From [Chlorobium] sp. 445 (GTDB lineage Bacteria; Bacteroidota; Chlorobiia; Chlorobiales; Thermochlorobacteraceae): 50,387 nt of DNA. The position numbers were made by a program, and so were the translations under genes. Below, in pieces: positions 12,003-27,366 of this stretch (the stretch's first letter is position 1; each line of letters opens with the position of its first letter). The notes beneath the pieces are model-generated. The model worked only from the letters and a program-made list of their open reading frames with translations, searched no databases and was not told where the DNA came from. The stretch lies in contig NSLH01000018.1 in assembly GCA_002763895.1 (NCBI GenBank), positions 1-50,387 on the forward strand, given 5' to 3'.

Positions 12003-14730
12003 TCATTGAAAGCTGTAAAAGACTTCGGCGCCGAAAAAGAGCGTTGGATTGCGCTGAGTGCTTTGTCCTGTCGCCGCACTAAAAAAGAGCGGCCTATCTG
12101 CCAGCGCATTATTGACAAAAAACGCAAAACGAATTCCTGACGGCAGTTCTTTGGTCAGCCGTACATTGAAGAGCCAAAGTATCGGTCTAGTGTTCTCTAA
12201 GCCGGGCTGTGGCGATTGTGGCGGCAAGTCTGCAATCAAGTTCAAGTTACCCCGTCGATCTACAAATCCAATCGGTTGATTGCCACGGTTAAATGGTCGA
12301 TCGCTTTCTATCCAAACCGTTTGCGCCAGCAGAGAAACCACCATGGAGAGTTCGGGAATGCGTGTGATGAAGCGCAGTGCGCTTGTCAGCAGTTGCGACT
12401 CACGTCCGCCACCGGATTGAAAGACTTCAATGCGGCTAGGCGGTGTTGTCCCAAAAATCACATCGGTGTTGAAGAAAAAAGCGTTATCAATCACGCGACT
12501 GCGCAGATATGCACCTGTTAGGTTGAGCGACGTGCGCAGCAGCGACCACTCTGGCAAATCTAGCGTCAGCTCAATACCTTCCGAGAAAATATCACGGCTA
12601 TTGACAGGTACATCGTAAGCGCCAATGAAGGTGTCAATCACTGCGACTTCAATCTCTGGCGGTCGACCAGCGGGCGTAGAGACGACTCGGAAGCGTGGAT
12701 AGGTGAGCACGGCTGGCAATCGATTGATGCCAAAGGCACCTGTTGTGTTTTCTCGAAATGCGACCACATTTGCCGTTACGCCACTTATTGACACATCTAC
12801 ACCAAGTTCAGTTTTTGTAGCACTGAAATATCGCGCATTGGGGTTCTTCGGCTCAATGACACGTGTTGTAATCATGACGAGCCGCTCTGCAGGATTCGGC
12901 GCAAAGTAATTGAAGCCAACGAGATCGAAGTATTTGCGATCGGGATACAGTTGCGAGAGTGTCGGCGACTTTACTGTTACACCGAAGCCACCGCGCAGCC
13001 AGATGCCATCAATGATTTCGACTGTGGCATTGAGGCGCGGTGAAATTGCTTCACCGAAGGTGCCACGAAAAAAGACCTTGCGGCTGAATGTTATCGAAGC
13101 GTGCGCCCAGTTGCACAAGTACACTCTTGCCTAAGATGTCTGCGGCGATGCGGTCTTCGATGTAGAAGCCCAACTGCGTCAGTGCAGGAATATCGCTAAA
13201 TGGACGTGGTCGCTCGCCTACAGAGTAATTTTGACGTGGTGGCGTAAAAATATCAAAGCTACGTCCTTCACCTCGATTTTGGTCGTAGCGCAGCTCAAAG
13301 CCTGAAAAAAATTGGTGCAAGAAGCCAAACAAGCTCGCTTTGTGCACAAACTCTAAACGTGAGTAGAGATTCAGGGGCAAACCTTGCACACTGGTGCGAT
13401 TGAGATATTCAATATCGCCGAAGATACCGGGCTTTGTGGTATCGCTTGTAGCATCAGAGAGCGGGAAGCGACCGTCAGCACGTGTGATGAGTTCCTGAAA
13501 GCGTCCAACTTGTTCTGTGTAGTTCAGACTTGCGGTCCATTCCAATTTGGTGCGTGCATCATCATCGAAGCGCAATACAGAAAAAAGACTTGTGCGTAAG
13601 CCACGATCTTGTGCAACGCGCGTGATTTGCTGCTGATCGCGCTCAAACTGCTGGCGTTCGTCAATTGTGGTGTAAAAATTAGTGCGCAGTGTGCTTGTCA
13701 GTCGCGCAGCATTATCCCATTGCTGCGACCAGGCAAGATTGGCAATAAGGCGAGAGAATGTCTCTTCAGTGCGGCGCAGATCATCTTGTGAGCGCGTAAA
13801 ATTGAGTTCTGCGGTCAGATTCGTTCGCTTCTCAAACAGCGCCCAGCCTGCACCGAGTGTGCTCTCAAAAGTTTGTGGATTGAGCCTAAGGCGCGCTTGA
13901 GGTTTGTAGGCAGAGGCGCGGGTTTGGACCAGAATTGCACCGACGGTCAAATCGCCGTGCCGCGCCGATGGAATGCCGCGTATGACTTCAATCGACTCAA
14001 TGTTATCAGCGGAAAATTGTCGCAAGTCTAAGCCACGTCCTTCTGCTGAAGCAAACGGTGGTAAGGTTCCCGGTGCAGAGTTCAAGATCGTCAGATTTGT
14101 TTGCAGGTTCGCATTGTTGGAGAGCGGCACACCATCGAGCACAATTGCAGTGCCTAAGGCATTGGCTCTATCGGCAGCAGAGGGATTAGCCGCACTGACA
14201 GACAGCGGCGCTTGGCGCAATAGACTTTGACGCACACCTGAGAGCGTGGGATTTTGTGCCAGTTGTCCCGGCAAAAGCTGCAAGACATCAGCGAGGCTTG
14301 AGGCTTGCACATGTTCAATCGCACTGCGCTCGATGCGCGACGTGGTTCCAAGTTCACCACCTTGTGCATTTTCGCGCGCAGTTACCACAACTTCAGCAGA
14401 TTTAAATGAGACATAGCGCAATGCTACGTTTAGCTTTGTCTCATCATCTTTGAGCTCAACAGTAACCAGTTCACGCACGATGCCAACGCGTTCGAAGACG
14501 ATATCGAGTTTAGTTTTGGGAAGATTGTCTAAGCGAAAGAAGCCTCGCGCATCAGTAAAGGTAAAAGCGCTTGTGCCAAGGGCACGCACCACGACATCTT
14601 GCAGGGGCTGGTCATCTTCAGCAGCACGCACGCTGCCGATGAGTGTCGCTCGCCGCTCCTGTCCTGCAGCTATGCAAGTCATTTGCAACAGAAGCGCAAG
14701 AACAAGCACGAGCTTAATGTTCAACTGCAT
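12003..14730 (-). CDS. TonB-dependent outer-membrane receptor (one frameshift)
   Basis: About 908 residues after repair, from ATG 14730 (signal MQLNIKLVLVLALLLQMTCI to AAGQ). A carboxypeptidase-regulatory-like domain comes first (ATLIGSVRAAEDDQPLQDVV, FTDARGFFRLDNLP), then the plug (SSLADVLQLLPGQLAQNPTL, GTAIVLDGVPLSNNANLQTN, IESIEVIRGIPSARHGDL) and a long barrel ending in Phe-Gln. The frame breaks at the A6 run 13068-13073 (coding T6). One fewer base gives NIQPQGLFRGTFGEAISPRL and continues through the barrel to 12003. It heads the unit with the DUF4876 and DUF6850 genes. The cargo is not evident; a TTGCAA palindrome just upstream hints at metal-type regulation. Confidence 0.9.
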
Positions 14731-14748
14731 TTTGATTTTTTCCTTTGC

Positions 14749-14767
14749 CTTGCAAATGATTTGCAAG
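14749..14767. promoter_or_regulatory. TTGCAA palindrome upstream of the TonB receptor gene
   Basis: CTTGCAAATGATTTGCAAG is a perfect inverted repeat: two eight-base arms around TGA. It lies 19 bases before the TonB start codon, next to an AAGGA ribosome-binding site at about 14736-14743, where a bound repressor would block transcription. The form (A/T-rich core, TTGCAA arms, about 19 bases) is like the operators of Fur-family metal regulators, and related half-sites recur at 11946-11979. Confidence 0.62.
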
Positions 14768-14976
14768 TAAAAATACAATGTTTTTTACAAATTGCCTTCA
14801 AAAGTAGAGCTCAAGTACAACATGCATAGAGTTCTTGCAGTGAAGCCTTGCACAGCAAGAAAAGTCGACTACGGTTATCCATCTCTCACGGGTTTTGAAG
14901 TTGCAGTACGTGCTCACAAAAAAATTAGCGTGCTGCTTGAAAGTTTTTTTACAAAGCCTGCAATAGCGTTATCTTT

Positions 14977-16541
14977 ATGGCGCCACCAGATCTTTCCAAC
15001 ATCAAACGCGTGTGCAGTATGTCCAAAACGCTTGCCTACAGTAACGATAGTCAGGTCATTGACTTTCTCAGCAGGGTTTCTCCATTTGAGCGTCTGACAA
15101 CCGATGAACTTCAAGCTGTCGCTAATCTACTTTGGCGTCAGCATTTTGCAGAGGGCGAAAAAGTGTTCTCGCAAGGTGACCACAGTTCAGAAGCGTATAT
15201 CATCGAGTCGGGTAAGCTCTCCTTTGAGAAGATGGGTCACATCATTCGTTTTTTGAAGCAGGCGAAGTATGTGGTCGCTCTGCCATGGTGAATGATATGC
15301 CAAGAAGTGGTTCTGCTTTTGCTGTTGAACCCACCACGGCCCTTGTAATAGATCGCCGAAAACTTGAGAATCCTGAGTGTCTCAATCCGCGCATATATGG
15401 CAAAATCTGCATGGAGTTTGCGCGCATGCTCACAAATCCGACCTCTGAGGAAGAAGCGATGTATCGCGAAATCGATGTTTTGCTTTTGCAAGATGGCGGT
15501 TGTGCACCGGGCTATAATCCTGTTACGGCTTTTATCACAGAGTATCTCGAGCAAGACAAGCGGCGTGTTTTTATCACGAAAGAAGGTTTCATCTCGTTGG
15601 TGAAAGCGCATACAGAAGACTATCGTCGACTGGTGTATAGCATTGGATTGTATCATCAATTGGAACGCATTCCCGGAGTGATTTTCTCGCCGCCCTTACG
15701 TGAAGCGCGTGGCGCAGATTTCCGCACCGAACGCTTCAGCGACTTTAAGAAGCCCGAAGTTCAGGCAAAAGCAGTAGAAGAGATTTTGCGGCGCAAGGTC
15801 AAAGTGCTGGTCGGCATTGGTGGCAATGGGACCTTTGCTGGTATGAATGCCTTGTCTCAAGCGCTGCCGAAGAGTGTGCAGACGTTCTTCGTTCCTGTTA
15901 CAATTGATAGCGATGTCTACGGCACAGAGTGTATTGGTCAGCATACTGGCGTGGAGGTTGGTTCAGAGAAAATTCGTTGCTACATGGCAGACGCCCGCAC
16001 GCACCATCGCTGTTACATCATTGAGATGATGGGCGCAGCTGGCGGCTATCATGCTTTGCATTCGTGTCTGGGTGCGGGTGCACACTTGGCGGTCTTGCCT
16101 CAGTCTAAGTTTGACATGAAAAAACTCGCTGAAGCGATTGGACCGCGAACTTCAACTGTCATTGTTGTCGCAGAAGGCTACAAAGCCGAAGAACGCAAAG
16201 CCAAAGGCATCAAACAAAATGCCGCAGAATACTTCCGTGATGAACTTCTGGCTGCAGGCTTGCAAACTAAACAGAAAATTGTCTGTGAAGCCTTCTCACG
16301 TGACATTCGCGGGGCTAAACCGAACAACATGGATCTGACGCTGGCGCAACGCATGGCACGCAAACTTGCAGAACTTATCCGCTCTGGTGAGACACGCATG
16401 ATGCCTGCTGTGCTTGCCGATAGAGAATATGCTATTAGCTTTGATGAAATTCGTACAGAAAATTCGGTCGACTCCGATTTGGCGCAACTGGCAAACCGTT
16501 TGGGTATTCACCATCATAATTCGGAGATGACAAAAGCCTGA
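14977..16541 (+). CDS. Cyclic-nucleotide-binding domain fused to a phosphofructokinase-like domain (one frameshift)
   Basis: About 521 residues after adding one T to the T6 run 15249-15254. Residues 25-150 form a CRP-type cNMP-binding domain (FLSRVSPFERLTTDELQAVA, GEKVFSQGDHSSEAYIIESG, then across the repair FFEAGEVCGRSAMVNDMPRS). In its phosphate cassette the usual ribose-binding Glu of GEL is replaced (GRSA), but Arg 110 is kept. Residues 165-510 have the PFK fold: DGGCAPGYNPVTAF, GIGGNGTFAGMNA, PVTIDSDVYGTECIGQHTG, MMGAAGGYHALHS, VVAEGYK. Compared with standard PFK, GGDGS is GGNGT, TIDND is TIDSD and MGRxxG is MGAAGG, so normal kinase activity is uncertain. ATG 14977 gives the longest frame; ATG 15019 is an alternative. 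Its TonB neighbour is divergent. Confidence 0.82.
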
Positions 16542-16678
16542 GCACATAAAGCCAAGCGCTAACCTATGTGCGCATGCGGCTTGATGCGCCCAAGCGATTT
16601 ACTTAACTTCTTTTTCTTGCAAGGCAAGAACAGCCAAAAGAACATTTAGCTTACTTTGAACGCTTAACTTTTTTGAGT

Positions 16679-19529
16679 ATGCCAACGAAAGCAAAATCCG
16701 CCGCAAAGAAAACTTCAGTTGCCAAAGCCACCCTGAGTGCAGTCACAAATGGACATGGCAAGAATGGTAAAATCGCTAAGTCTACGACAACCAAGGCAAG
16801 TCCAAAAGCCAGTCGCAAAAAATTCATCTACTTCTTCGGTGGTGGTAAAGCCGAAGGGGATGCCAACATGAAAAATTTGCTTGGTGGCAAAGGCGCTAAC
16901 TTAGCCGAAATGACGAACATCGGCTTACCTGTTCCACCCGGTTTTACCATTACAACCGAAGTTTGCACTTACTTCTACGACAATCAGCGCACCTATCCGA
17001 AAGGGCTTTTTGAAAAGGACATTCCTGAAGCGCTTGCCAAAATGGAAAAACTCTTGGGCAAAAAATTCGGAGATCCCAAAAATCCCCTGCTCGTCTCCGT
17101 CCGCTCTGGTGCAAGAGCTTCTATGCCCGGGATGATGGATACGATTCTCAACTTAGGCTTGAACGACCGCACCGTCGAAGGCCTTGCCAAACTCAGCGGC
17201 AATCCACGCTTTGCTTACGATTGCTATCGGCGCTTTGTACAAATGTACGGCGATGTGGTAATGGGCTTGAAACCGCAAGACAAAAAAGATATCGACCCCT
17301 TTGAGGCGATCATTGAGCAAAAAAAGTTAGAGCGTGGTGTCACGCAAGATGTTGAACTTAATGCTGATGATTTAAAAGACCTTGTTGCACAGTTCAAGCG
17401 CATCATTAAAGAGCGCACCGGGAAGGATTTTCCTGATGATCCTTTTGAGCAACTGCGTGGTGCTATTGGTGCCGTCTTCGAGAGCTGGAATAACGAGCGA
17501 GCGATTGTCTATCGCAAACTTAACAACATTCCTGCCTCGTGGGGTACAGCATGCAATGTGCAAGCAATGGTATTTGGTAATTTGGGTGAAAACTCTGGTA
17601 CAGGTGTTGCCTTCACGCGTGATGCAGCAACCGGCGAAAAATGTGTTCTATGGCGAGTACTTGATGAATGCGCAAGGCGAAGACGTCGTCGCTGGTATTC
17701 GCACGCCGCTCAAAATCGCGGAACTGCAAAAGCAAAGTCCTGAACTTTACGCACAACTCGAGAAAATCCGCCGAATCCTTGAAAAGCACTACAAGGACAT
17801 GATGGATATTGAGTTTACGATTGAGCAAGGCAAGCTTTACATGCTGCAATGTCGTGTTGGCAAGCGCACAGGATTTGCTGCTATTAAAATTGCTTTAGAC
17901 ATGAAAGATGAGCGGCTGATTTCTGAAAAAGAAGCGCTCCTGCGCATTGAACCTGAACAACTCAACCAACTCTTGCGTCCAATCTTTGACCCCAAACAAA
18001 AACGCGAGGCTATTGACAAAGGTCGCTTGATGGCACGCGGCTTGAACGCTGGACCTGGCGCTGCAACGGGACGAGTGTATTTCAATGCGGCCGATGCAGA
18101 AGCTGCTGCCAAGCGCGGCGAACGCGTGATTTTAGTGCGCATTGAAACCTCGCCAGAAGACATTCGTGGCATGGCTGCTGCTGAAGGCATTCTCACAGCG
18201 CGTGGCGGTATGACCTCTCACGCCGCACTGGTCGCCCGTCAAATGGGCAAGGTCTGTGTCGCTGGGTGTGATGCTCTGGAAATTAGCTACGAGCAGGCAC
18301 GCATGAAAGTTAAAGGCAAAGAATTTCTCATTAAAGAAGGTGATTACATCTCCATTGATGGCTCGACTGGCGAAGTCATTGAAGGTGAAGTGCAAACCAA
18401 ACCGTCAGAAGTCTTGCAAGTCTTGTTTAGTAAAACGCTCAAGCCCGAAGAGTCTGAAGTCTATCAGATGTATGAACGCTTGATGCAGTGGGCAGATAAG
18501 TATCGCAAATTGCGCATTCGTGCAAATGCCGATCAGCCCGACCAAGCGCAAAATGCCATCATCTTTGGGGCAGAAGGCATCGGACTTTGCCGCACAGAGC
18601 ATATGTTCTTTGGTAAAGACCGCATTGATAAAGTTCGTCAGATGATTCTGGCTAACTCGGCAGAAGAGCGCCGTGAAGCCCTTAAAGAAATTATACCCTA
18701 TCAGCGCGTCGATTTCTATGGCATTTTCAAAGTGATGAACGGTCATCCGGTTACTATCCGTCTCTTAGACCCGCCGCTGCATGAATTTTTGCCGCATACT
18801 GAAAAAGAACAGCGCGAACTTGCCGAAAAACTGCATAAGACCTACGAAGAAGTGCATCAGCGTGTAGAGTCGCTGCTGGAAATGAATCCTATGCTCGGCT
18901 TCAGGGGCTGCCGTTTGGGCATTATCTATCCTGAGATTACGGAAATGCAAGCGCGCGCCATTCTTGAAGCTGCATGCAATGCACATAAAGATGGCATCAA
19001 AGTCTTACCTGAAATTATGATTCCGCTTATCGGTCACGTCAGAGAATTAGAAATGCAAGCTAAGCTCATTCATGAGACAGCTGAAAAGGTGTTCGCCGAA
19101 AAGAACATTCGCATCGAATACCTTGTCGGTACAATGATTGAAGTCCCGCGTGCGGCTCTAACGGCTGGTGAAATCGCTAAAGTCGCTGACTTTTTCAGTT
19201 ACGGTACAAACGACCTTACACAAATGACCCTTGGTCTTAGCCGTGATGACGCTGGACGTTTCTTGCCTACTTACGTTGAAAAAGAAATCTATCTTCGTGA
19301 TCCCTTTGAGGCGATTGACCAAGTTGGTGTGGGGCGTTTGATGCAACTGGGTACGCAAGAGGGGCGCGCTGTGAAACCTAAGCTCAAAGTTGGCATTTGC
19401 GGCGAACATGGTGGTGAGCCAAGCTCGATTGAGTTTTGCCATCGATTGGGCTTTGATTATGTCTCCTGCAGCCCTTTCCGCATTCCAATTGCACGATTAG
19501 CGGCTGCCCGCGCCGCACTGAAAGGCTGA
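16679..19529 (+). CDS. ppdK: Pyruvate phosphate dikinase with Lys-rich N-terminal extension (one frameshift)
   Basis: About 949 residues after repair. PPDK interconverts pyruvate, ATP and Pi with PEP, AMP and PPi. Residues 1-47 are a Lys/Ala/Ser/Thr-rich tail absent from most PPDKs; the enzyme proper begins [20 protein letters not shown] at 48. Then come the ATP-grasp half ([30 protein letters not shown]), the phosphohistidine domain ([20 protein letters not shown]) and the PEP-binding barrel ([40 protein letters not shown]). The frame breaks at the A5 run 17637-17641: with one A fewer, [20 protein letters not shown] reads through. The ATG at 16679 is the only in-frame Met ahead of the core, which supports the extension being real. 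Confidence 0.93.
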
Positions 19530-25686: not shown

Positions 25687-27366
25687 ATGCAAAACGAGAT
25701 TTGGCTTTTACTTCTCTTAGGATTTTGCCTCATACTCACACTTACAGGCATCTGGCTTTATCATCGTGCTCAAACCGCACTAAGAGAACACGAAAAGATA
25801 CAGTGGTGGCTACAGGAGCAAGTGGAGCGAACCGTACACAACGAACAATTGCTCTCACATTTACCCTTCTTTCTTGTTGTGCATACCGATACAGAGATTT
25901 GTTTTTGCAATGACGCAGCATTAGGCTTCTTCGGCAAAAGCAGTTTCTCGCAAGTTGTCGGTAAACCGCTTTCCTCGTTTGCAATTCCATCAGATCAACC
26001 TTTGTTAGATGAGTTTATCAAGTCTGCGCTCAAACAGACGCAAGAGACAACTTTGCCTAAAAAAATTTTCTGTTTCCAAACGCCGTCAGGCAGTGCTCGT
26101 TTGCAGTTACTTGTCAGCGTTGTCATGAGCAAGCAGCCAATACTTATCATTGCCGCTGACATTGTTAAGCCAGCCATCTCTTCTGCCGAGCAGAATAGTA
26201 TGCTCTACGAGCTTTGGGAGCCTCATCAAAAATTAGAAGCCGCATGTGCACTTGTCAGCGGTATTGCCTACGAGTTCAATCTTATCTTCAATGATTTAGA
26301 TCTGCTGATGCGCAACGCCAAAACGCACCTCAGTAACAGCGAGGCGCTTCAACAAGCACTTTTAGCTATTGAAACCAAAATTCAAAATGGACTTGCAACC
26401 GTAAAGTGGATTTCTAACCTTGTCAATGCAGCAGATGTGCCATTTTCCAAACTTTCGCTCTGGTCTATTGTTGAAAATGCACATTGCCTTTTGAGCTCCA
26501 CACTCTCAAGCTACTTTTCGCTCAAACTCACACACGACACGAAGTGCGATGAAATCTATGGCAGCGAAACTCTGCTTCAACAACTGATTCTTAATCTTAC
26601 TACCGCTGTTCAAGGTATTCTTCCGGCTTGCAACAAGGTTGCCCTTGAAGTCTGCGAACCGCTCTCTCTTCCAATATCCTCATTTTTTGGGCTGCAGAAC
26701 CCCTCACAGTATGTTGCGCTTATTATCGGTGATGCCGCCGGTTCATCAGGTGCTCCTGTCGTTATGATTGATCCAGCACAGTTTGCTAAAGAGCATGGTC
26801 AAAGTTTTGGACTGAGCTTGCTGATTGCACTCAACATCGTCAAGATGCACCATGGCTTTATGGGTGCGCAATATGAACCTCGACGCAGGCTTCGCTTCAT
26901 CATGCTTTTTCCGTTAGTAGACTTGACCAGCACAACGCTTGAAGTTAAGCAGACTTCAGTCTCTCTCTCACCTCCTTTCAGGCGACTTTCACCCGAGCAC
27001 CGCAACACAATTTTGATTGTCGATGATGAACAGTATTTGTGCGAGATTATGAGTCGCGCCCTCCATTCGGCGGGCTATACGCCGCTTACCTTCACCAACA
27101 GCCATGATGCCCTCAAGACCATCCTAACCATGCGTGATGAAATTGACCTTTGCATTTTTGATTTGACTTTACCTGAAATAAATGGCGAAGAGCTTTCTTA
27201 CTTTGTGCATAAAGAAATACCGAATCTGCCTATTATCATTGCTTCAGGCAGCATTGAACCTGCCTATCAGCATCGGTTGGAACGCAGTGGTGTTACCGCC
27301 TTTATTACGAAGCCGTTCTCGCTCAAAACTCTACTTCAGACAGTCGCATCAGCTATGGCAAATTGA
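25687..27366 (+). CDS. Degenerate hybrid histidine kinase with intact receiver domain
   Basis: 559 residues. One N-terminal membrane helix (about 5-25), a short coil, a PAS-like domain (about 50-160), a histidine-kinase-like region (180-410) and a receiver (440-559). In the dimerisation helix the usual AHDFN reads AYEFN, so the phospho-acceptor is Tyr 195. The N-box is LNLTTAVQG, with the second Asn replaced by Ala 307, and the G1 box is eroded (GDAAGSSGA). The receiver keeps Asp 446/447, acceptor Asp 492 in FDLTLPEING and Lys 542. It therefore probably cannot autophosphorylate but may receive phosphate from a partner kinase. It sits 125 bases after the hydroxylase genes. The output is unknown, as no DNA-binding domain follows. 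Confidence 0.85.
   Translation: MQNEIWLLLLLGFCLILTLTGIWLYHRAQTALREHEKIQWWLQEQVERTVHNEQLLSHLPFFLVVHTDTEICFCNDAALGFFGKSSFSQVVGKPLSSFAIPSDQPLLDEFIKSALKQTQETTLPKKIFCFQTPSGSARLQLLVSVVMSKQPILIIAADIVKPAISSAEQNSMLYELWEPHQKLEAACALVSGIAYEFNLIFNDLDLLMRNAKTHLSNSEALQQALLAIETKIQNGLATVKWISNLVNAADVPFSKLSLWSIVENAHCLLSSTLSSYFSLKLTHDTKCDEIYGSETLLQQLILNLTTAVQGILPACNKVALEVCEPLSLPISSFFGLQNPSQYVALIIGDAAGSSGAPVVMIDPAQFAKEHGQSFGLSLLIALNIVKMHHGFMGAQYEPRRRLRFIMLFPLVDLTSTTLEVKQTSVSLSPPFRRLSPEHRNTILIVDDEQYLCEIMSRALHSAGYTPLTFTNSHDALKTILTMRDEIDLCIFDLTLPEINGEELSYFVHKEIPNLPIIIASGSIEPAYQHRLERSGVTAFITKPFSLKTLLQTVASAMAN

Follow-up and report, generated by a model that had tools for sequence, protein, structure and literature searches.

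The window, a stretch of 50,387 nucleotides from [Chlorobium] sp. 445, carries a gene in which a cyclic-nucleotide-binding (cNMP) domain is fused to a phosphofructokinase (PFK)-like domain with altered catalytic residues, and some 50 distinct homologues share this fusion architecture. The N-terminal signalling module is a cNMP domain in some lineages and a response-regulator receiver in others. Phosphofructokinase is the textbook enzyme switched by metabolites binding to its own fold. These proteins may form a clade of their own within the PFK superfamily, one whose control has shifted from the effector site of the domain itself to the attached module; this is the explanation that we favor, at a confidence slightly short of even. 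The individual components are familiar; for the clade and its architecture, no earlier description seems to exist.

In the window the gene is spread over two reading frames of the forward strand. A first open reading frame (14977-15291, +) encodes the first half of the cNMP domain, and this broken piece alone matched PF00027 with an E-value of 2e-5 and 24.9 bits (cut-off 27.5). The second (15285-16541, +) encodes the C-terminal part of the cNMP domain, a linker and the whole PFK-like domain (PF00365, E 1e-48). Its frame is open upstream to 15228, and both frames overlap around a run of T at 15249-15254 (+), where the reading frame breaks. The earlier sequence-only reading had repaired this run and proposed one continuous protein. 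This is what the relatives show: the intact fusion of 496–507 residues was found in a single frame in 10 genomes of the window's order, and it is equally continuous in dozens of others. The CRP-type cNMP domain with its helical linker was placed at 15019-15476 (+), using the PF00027 match, the start of the relatives and an AF2 model, and the PFK-like domain at 15477-16379 (+), using the PF00365 profile and the fold match to solved PFKs. The gene start formerly assumed at 14977 had to be corrected, since all relatives begin at a Met aligned with 15019. The nearest named relative of the window's genome, Candidatus Thermochlorobacter aerophilum (L033), encodes an intact protein of 505 amino acids, the PFK part of which is 92% identical to that of the window. 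Both of its domains exceeded the Pfam cut-offs (PF00027, E 6.5e-15, 55.3 bits versus 27.5; PF00365, E 1.3e-50), and PF00365 scores for the PFK-like domain were 166–173 bits against a curated cut-off of 30.9. The genes on both sides of the fusion are broken in the window as well. Pyruvate phosphate dikinase (ppdK; PEP-utilizer and PPDK_N domains) is split into the overlapping frames 16673-17743 and 17382-19529 (+), and an outer-membrane-receptor-like gene into 13051-14778 and 12003-13124 (-). Since both are whole in L033 (946 amino acids and one frame of 908 amino acids, respectively), an error of sequencing or assembly is the likely cause of the break in the fusion gene, and the split ppdK points to several such frame errors on this contig.

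Next to the window's order, the joined architecture was searched for across genomes, as had been proposed, and the cNMP-PFK fusion was found to recur across several phyla. Scanning GTDB genomes with the family alignment yielded 45 loci. In the window's GTDB phylum the profile search identified 16 of 394 genomes at E < 1e-200, with ordinary PFKs following at E ~1e-32; with this clear gap the family is readily delimited from ordinary PFKs. Family members were also detected in 11 of 247 genomes sampled around the receiver-type locus L058, 4 of 149 sampled around a rumen genome, 9 of 40 Calditrichota genomes and 3 of 294 genomes around a planctomycete, one of these a divergent relative. The searches of 198 genomes of the Leptospiraceae phylum and of 291 Bdellovibrionota genomes gave no match beyond the respective query genome itself. 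By record title, members belong to Chlorobiota, Bacteroidota, Calditrichota, deltaproteobacterial metagenome-assembled genomes (MAGs) including Desulfobacterales, Leptospiraceae, Bdellovibrionales, Auribacterota, Planctomycetota, a PVC bacterium and rumen bacteria; the majority are MAGs. In the viral contigs searched no member was found, and in plasmids only ordinary PFKs, so that a plasmid- or phage-borne family was rejected. A PFK tree, likewise proposed before, placed the family on one fully supported branch (support 100), monophyletic with respect to 21 ordinary PFKs, which sit on a very long branch; that of the module-free relative L169 is 5.9 changes per site long. L169 (G1066, Planctomycetota sample) is a very divergent open reading frame of 417 amino acids with the motifs GGNGT, SADSD and MGN. 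It scores between the family and ordinary PFKs (E 1e-77) and is perhaps a second undescribed PFK-like clade.

In nearly all members about 150 residues precede the PFK-like domain. A PF00027 module was found in Chlorobiota, Bacteroidota, Calditrichota, Leptospiraceae, rumen and some other genomes. A PF00072 receiver takes its place in Desulfobacterales, other deltaproteobacterial MAGs, a bdellovibrio, an auribacterote and one planctomycete, and in L058 this receiver reached 106 bits. The class of the module changes once on the unrooted tree of the PFK domain. The PVC member L072 has no attached module. On the same strand, a gene for a PTS EIIA protein (PF00359; L072:3351-3800, +) ends 83 bases upstream of it and may supply regulatory input of a third kind. 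In the window itself, a separate open reading frame of 559 amino acids (25687-27366, +) ends in a C-terminal PF00072 receiver domain, its first 440 residues being without a Pfam match at E 1e-10. In a Calditrichaceae genome, a GGDEF-EAL gene (L046:4065-5891, +) lies directly upstream of the family member.

The signature residues of both modules were counted by motif pattern, and three receiver-type members, where the pattern missed or misplaced the motif, were read by eye. In the phosphate-binding cassette of the window, CGRSAMVNDMPRSGSA, an Arg codon (15276-15278, +) replaces that of the ribose-binding Glu, and the phosphate-binding Arg is retained. The loss of this Glu, already seen in the sequence-only reading, holds for the window, its genus and the nearest sister, and not for the family as a whole: 23 of the 31 cNMP-type members retain it in an ordinary FGExAL...PRxG cassette (FGEIALIDERPRTGTV and similar). 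Among the other 8, the window's genus and nearest sister have Arg or Lys, L086 has Asp, and the rumen group lacks the residue. Among the receiver-type members, the phospho-acceptor Asp is present in 13 of 19, while the other 6 carry His, Ser, Gly or Val instead. Where these residues are lost, the module cannot work in the textbook manner; that they were lost repeatedly while the domain stayed may point to another ligand, to constitutive signalling or to a structural role. Homologues of class III nucleotide cyclases were present in all 29 carrier genomes tested, with 6 in the window's own. As they occur in genomes of both module classes, their presence is not specific and makes cNMP signalling merely possible.

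The residues of the PFK-like domain were compared by aligning 49 members of the family with 12 ordinary PFKs, using the numbering of E. coli PfkA without Met1. In PfkA, Asp103 is an Mg ligand and Arg171 belongs to the F6P-binding motif MGRxxG. Arg21, Arg25, Arg54, Arg154 and Glu187 were taken as the residues of its allosteric effector site. The motifs reported before were all found in the window: GGNGT (15819-15833, +) with Asn at the position of Asp103 (15825-15827, +), TIDSD (15900-15914, +) with Thr125, the base Asp127 and Asp129 kept and Asn128 replaced by Ser, and MGAAGG (16029-16046, +) with Ala at the position of Arg171 (16035-16037, +). These alterations are conserved across phyla. Asp103 is replaced by Asn in 39 of the 49 homologues and kept in the remaining 10, and Arg171 by Ala in 46, else it is Arg; three members keep both. 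Fixed in 49/49 are Cys for Asp12, Val for Gly124, Ser for Asn128 and Arg for His249, and the same number retain Gly11, Arg72, Gly104, Gly108, Thr125, Asp127, Asp129, His160, Arg162, Met169, Gly170, Glu222 and Arg252, the alignment being less certain at a gap near 243-252. The effector residues are replaced in practically all 49, with position 54 again less certain in the alignment. The family has Ala or Gly at 21, mostly Glu, Tyr or Gln at 25 (Arg in 2), Met or Leu at 154 and His or Asp at 187. Ordinary PFKs keep the PfkA residue at 21, 25, 154 and 187 in at least 11 of 12 cases, which makes these four the informative effector sites. As the substitutions are common to the whole family, local decay was rejected as the cause of the altered residues. 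Mean identity was 63–71% for the PFK part versus 28–43% for the module. With dN at 0.06–0.14 where dS was saturated (~2), thus far below dS, and a well-conserved PFK part, the protein is under strong constraint.

The family stayed below the cut-off of all NCBIfam PFK models; TIGR02482, NF002872 and TIGR02483 gave 106–154 bits versus cut-offs of 253–430. Of the residues by which an ATP-dependent PFK is recognized, Thr125, Asp127, Asp129, Arg162, Glu222 and Arg252 were found in 49/49, and Asp103, Arg171 and the effector residues Arg21, Arg25, Arg154 and Glu187 were missing in the window and, at the frequencies given above, in the family. Asp127 is the general base of PFK (PMC12203962). PPi-dependent PFKs are marked by GGDD and PKTIDXD, the general form of the latter being P(G/K)TIDXD (PMC12203962). 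Both PPi motifs were absent from the 49 homologues, with Gly104 and Val124 in every one, and PPi-dependent PFK identity was rejected on this basis.

An AF2 model of the cNMP form showed the PFK fold, with S. aureus PFK (5xz7) as the best Foldseek match (E 1e-22, TM 0.87 by target length) and ~20–27% identity in structural alignments to solved ATP-PFKs. In the receiver-form model, the terminal helix of the receiver extends without a break (one helix, 114-143) directly into the first PFK strand. In that of the cNMP form, two helices (124-138 and 141-150) bridge the module and the PFK-like domain. From these models we infer that the linker helix may be the transmission element.

The window's genome (2.8 Mb, with the window as its contig C18) contains a second, ordinary PFK (C1:115098-116012, E 1.4e-102), so the fusion protein need not run glycolysis. 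An ordinary PFK was also found in 14 of 16 other carrier genomes tested, the two without being MAGs of unstated completeness. The position directly ahead of ppdK had been pointed out before. It is conserved in the window's genus only, and already in the next genus a prolyl-tRNA-synthetase-like gene lies 3' of the fusion gene. Among the carrier loci compared, no neighbour was common beyond related species and no gene neighbourhood is conserved across phyla; an operon with ppdK or any conserved partner was therefore rejected beyond the genus.

How could such a protein work? In the window's organism the controlling module would be the cyclic-nucleotide-binding domain, and in other phyla the receiver. 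The trigger would be the binding of cAMP or cGMP, or the phosphorylation of the receiver in the other class. It would shift the helix that joins the module to the first PFK strand, the shift would alter the packing of the two Rossmann domains, the oligomer or both, and this change would switch the sugar-phosphate site on or off. In this transfer of control, the simplest account to cover all observations, the internal effector site would have been lost and the module would have taken over, with lineages differing in the module used. Control of a PFK fold by an attached domain was regarded as unusual in the sequence-only reading, and it gains weight as the intrinsic effector residues are gone in the 49 homologues and a receiver can replace the cNMP domain. 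Judged by the kept catalytic base and phosphate-binding arginines, the domain most likely still uses ATP to phosphorylate fructose 6-phosphate or a similar sugar phosphate, probably at a low rate or with changed specificity, and is not a mere binder. Chemistry is favored by the invariance of Asp127, Asp129, Thr125, Arg72, Arg162, Glu222 and Arg252. The lost Asp103 and Arg171, by contrast, speak for weak turnover or none and, together with the change at His249, make normal PFK turnover doubtful. Overall, we consider it somewhat probable that the domain catalyzes a reaction of some kind, combining the transfer of control with the altered specificity discussed below, and place about one third of our confidence in a pure sensor. 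More tentatively, and with a confidence clearly below even, we propose that the PFK-like domain might be a dedicated output or sensor of cyclic-nucleotide and two-component signalling in many phyla, which reads or makes a sugar phosphate on command and is not glycolytic.

The most serious alternative is a non-catalytic sensor, which would bind a sugar phosphate (perhaps a nucleotide), integrate the cNMP or phospho-relay signal and act on a partner protein; we regard it as a minority possibility. It agrees with the replacement of Asp103, Arg171 and His249 beside invariant sugar-phosphate contacts (Arg162, Arg252, Glu222), and with at least five switches between Asn and Asp at position 103 on the tree, by which the Asp is not strictly needed. 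Nearly all carrier genomes have another PFK, and the C-terminal half of animal PFK, reading IGGFEAY, ATVSNN and MGGYCG in the profile alignment, provides a precedent for a regulatory PFK domain. However, that half has Ser and Asn in place of Asp127 and Asp129, which are invariant in our 49 homologues, and the ten members with Asp103, three of them also with Arg171, are hard to fit. The former proposal of a perhaps non-catalytic protein was supported only by half: Asp103 and Arg171 are mostly lost, but the base and most substrate residues are invariant.

Unlikely in our judgement is a PFK-family kinase with a new substrate other than fructose 6-phosphate, or a new phosphoryl donor, for which Cys12, Val124, Ser128, Arg249 and Ala171 would be specificity determinants and the modules mere regulators. 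The altered positions do sit in catalytic-site motifs and are nearly fixed over several phyla, and Gly104/Gly108 of the ATP-dependent kind are combined with Val in place of the Gly/Lys of P(G/K)TIDXD (PMC12203962). Nevertheless, no pathway neighbours name a substrate, and the loss of Asp103 is hard to account for by specificity alone. Two separate genes with a true stop, or a decaying pseudogene, joined by misreading, may be suggested by the frame break in the window and the degraded look of the active site, yet are very improbable and were rejected for the family, given intact open frames of ~500 amino acids with the same residues in many genomes of several phyla and a dN far below dS.

Should transfer of control be correct and the modules switch the domain, the fusion would link second-messenger or two-component signalling directly to the chemistry of sugar phosphates. 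The receiver-driven and cNMP-driven versions of one domain form a natural set for comparing allostery by fusion. A domain dedicated to signalling, as output or sensor, would give the PFK fold a third role, next to those of ATP- and PPi-dependent phosphofructokinases. Systematic mis-annotation is likely, as automatic annotation would tend to name these proteins 6-phosphofructokinase.

In the open-licence papers searched, neither a cNMP-PFK nor a REC-PFK protein was described, nor was a PFK-like output domain on response regulators or cNMP fusions. A 2025 review of the superfamily enumerates 13 InterPro families and, as known extra N-terminal domain, a single glyoxalase-like one in yeast; it names neither cyclic nucleotides nor response regulators and mentions neither fusion (PMC12203962). 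With bacterial ATP-PFKs (E. coli PfkA, S. aureus 5xz7, G. stearothermophilus 3pfk/4pfk) the family has in common the fold, Gly104/Gly108, Thr125, Asp127, Asp129, Arg72, Arg162, Glu222 and Arg252. Unlike them, it has Asn103, Ala171, Cys12, Val124, Ser128 and Arg249, lacks the effector-site residues and carries an N-terminal signalling module. PPi-PFKs (TIGR02477, NF041103; Borrelia 2f48 kind) likewise combine the PFK fold with the lack of a classical effector site, but the family is without GGDD, has Val instead of the Lys of PKTIDXD and adds the module. The regulatory C-terminal half of eukaryotic PFK-1 has also lost the equivalent of Arg171 (MGG there, MGA here). There, however, Asp127/Asp129 read Ser/Asn and the half stands in tandem with a catalytic one, whereas our family keeps both Asp in a single PFK domain. 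The yeast PFK with its N-terminal glyoxalase-I-like domain (PMC12203962) resembles the family in having an extra N-terminal domain, which is, however, unrelated and non-signalling and belongs to a eukaryotic tandem PFK. With response regulators bearing enzymatic outputs and with CRP-type cNMP fusions, finally, the family has a common plan, a REC or cNMP module followed by a helical linker and an output domain.
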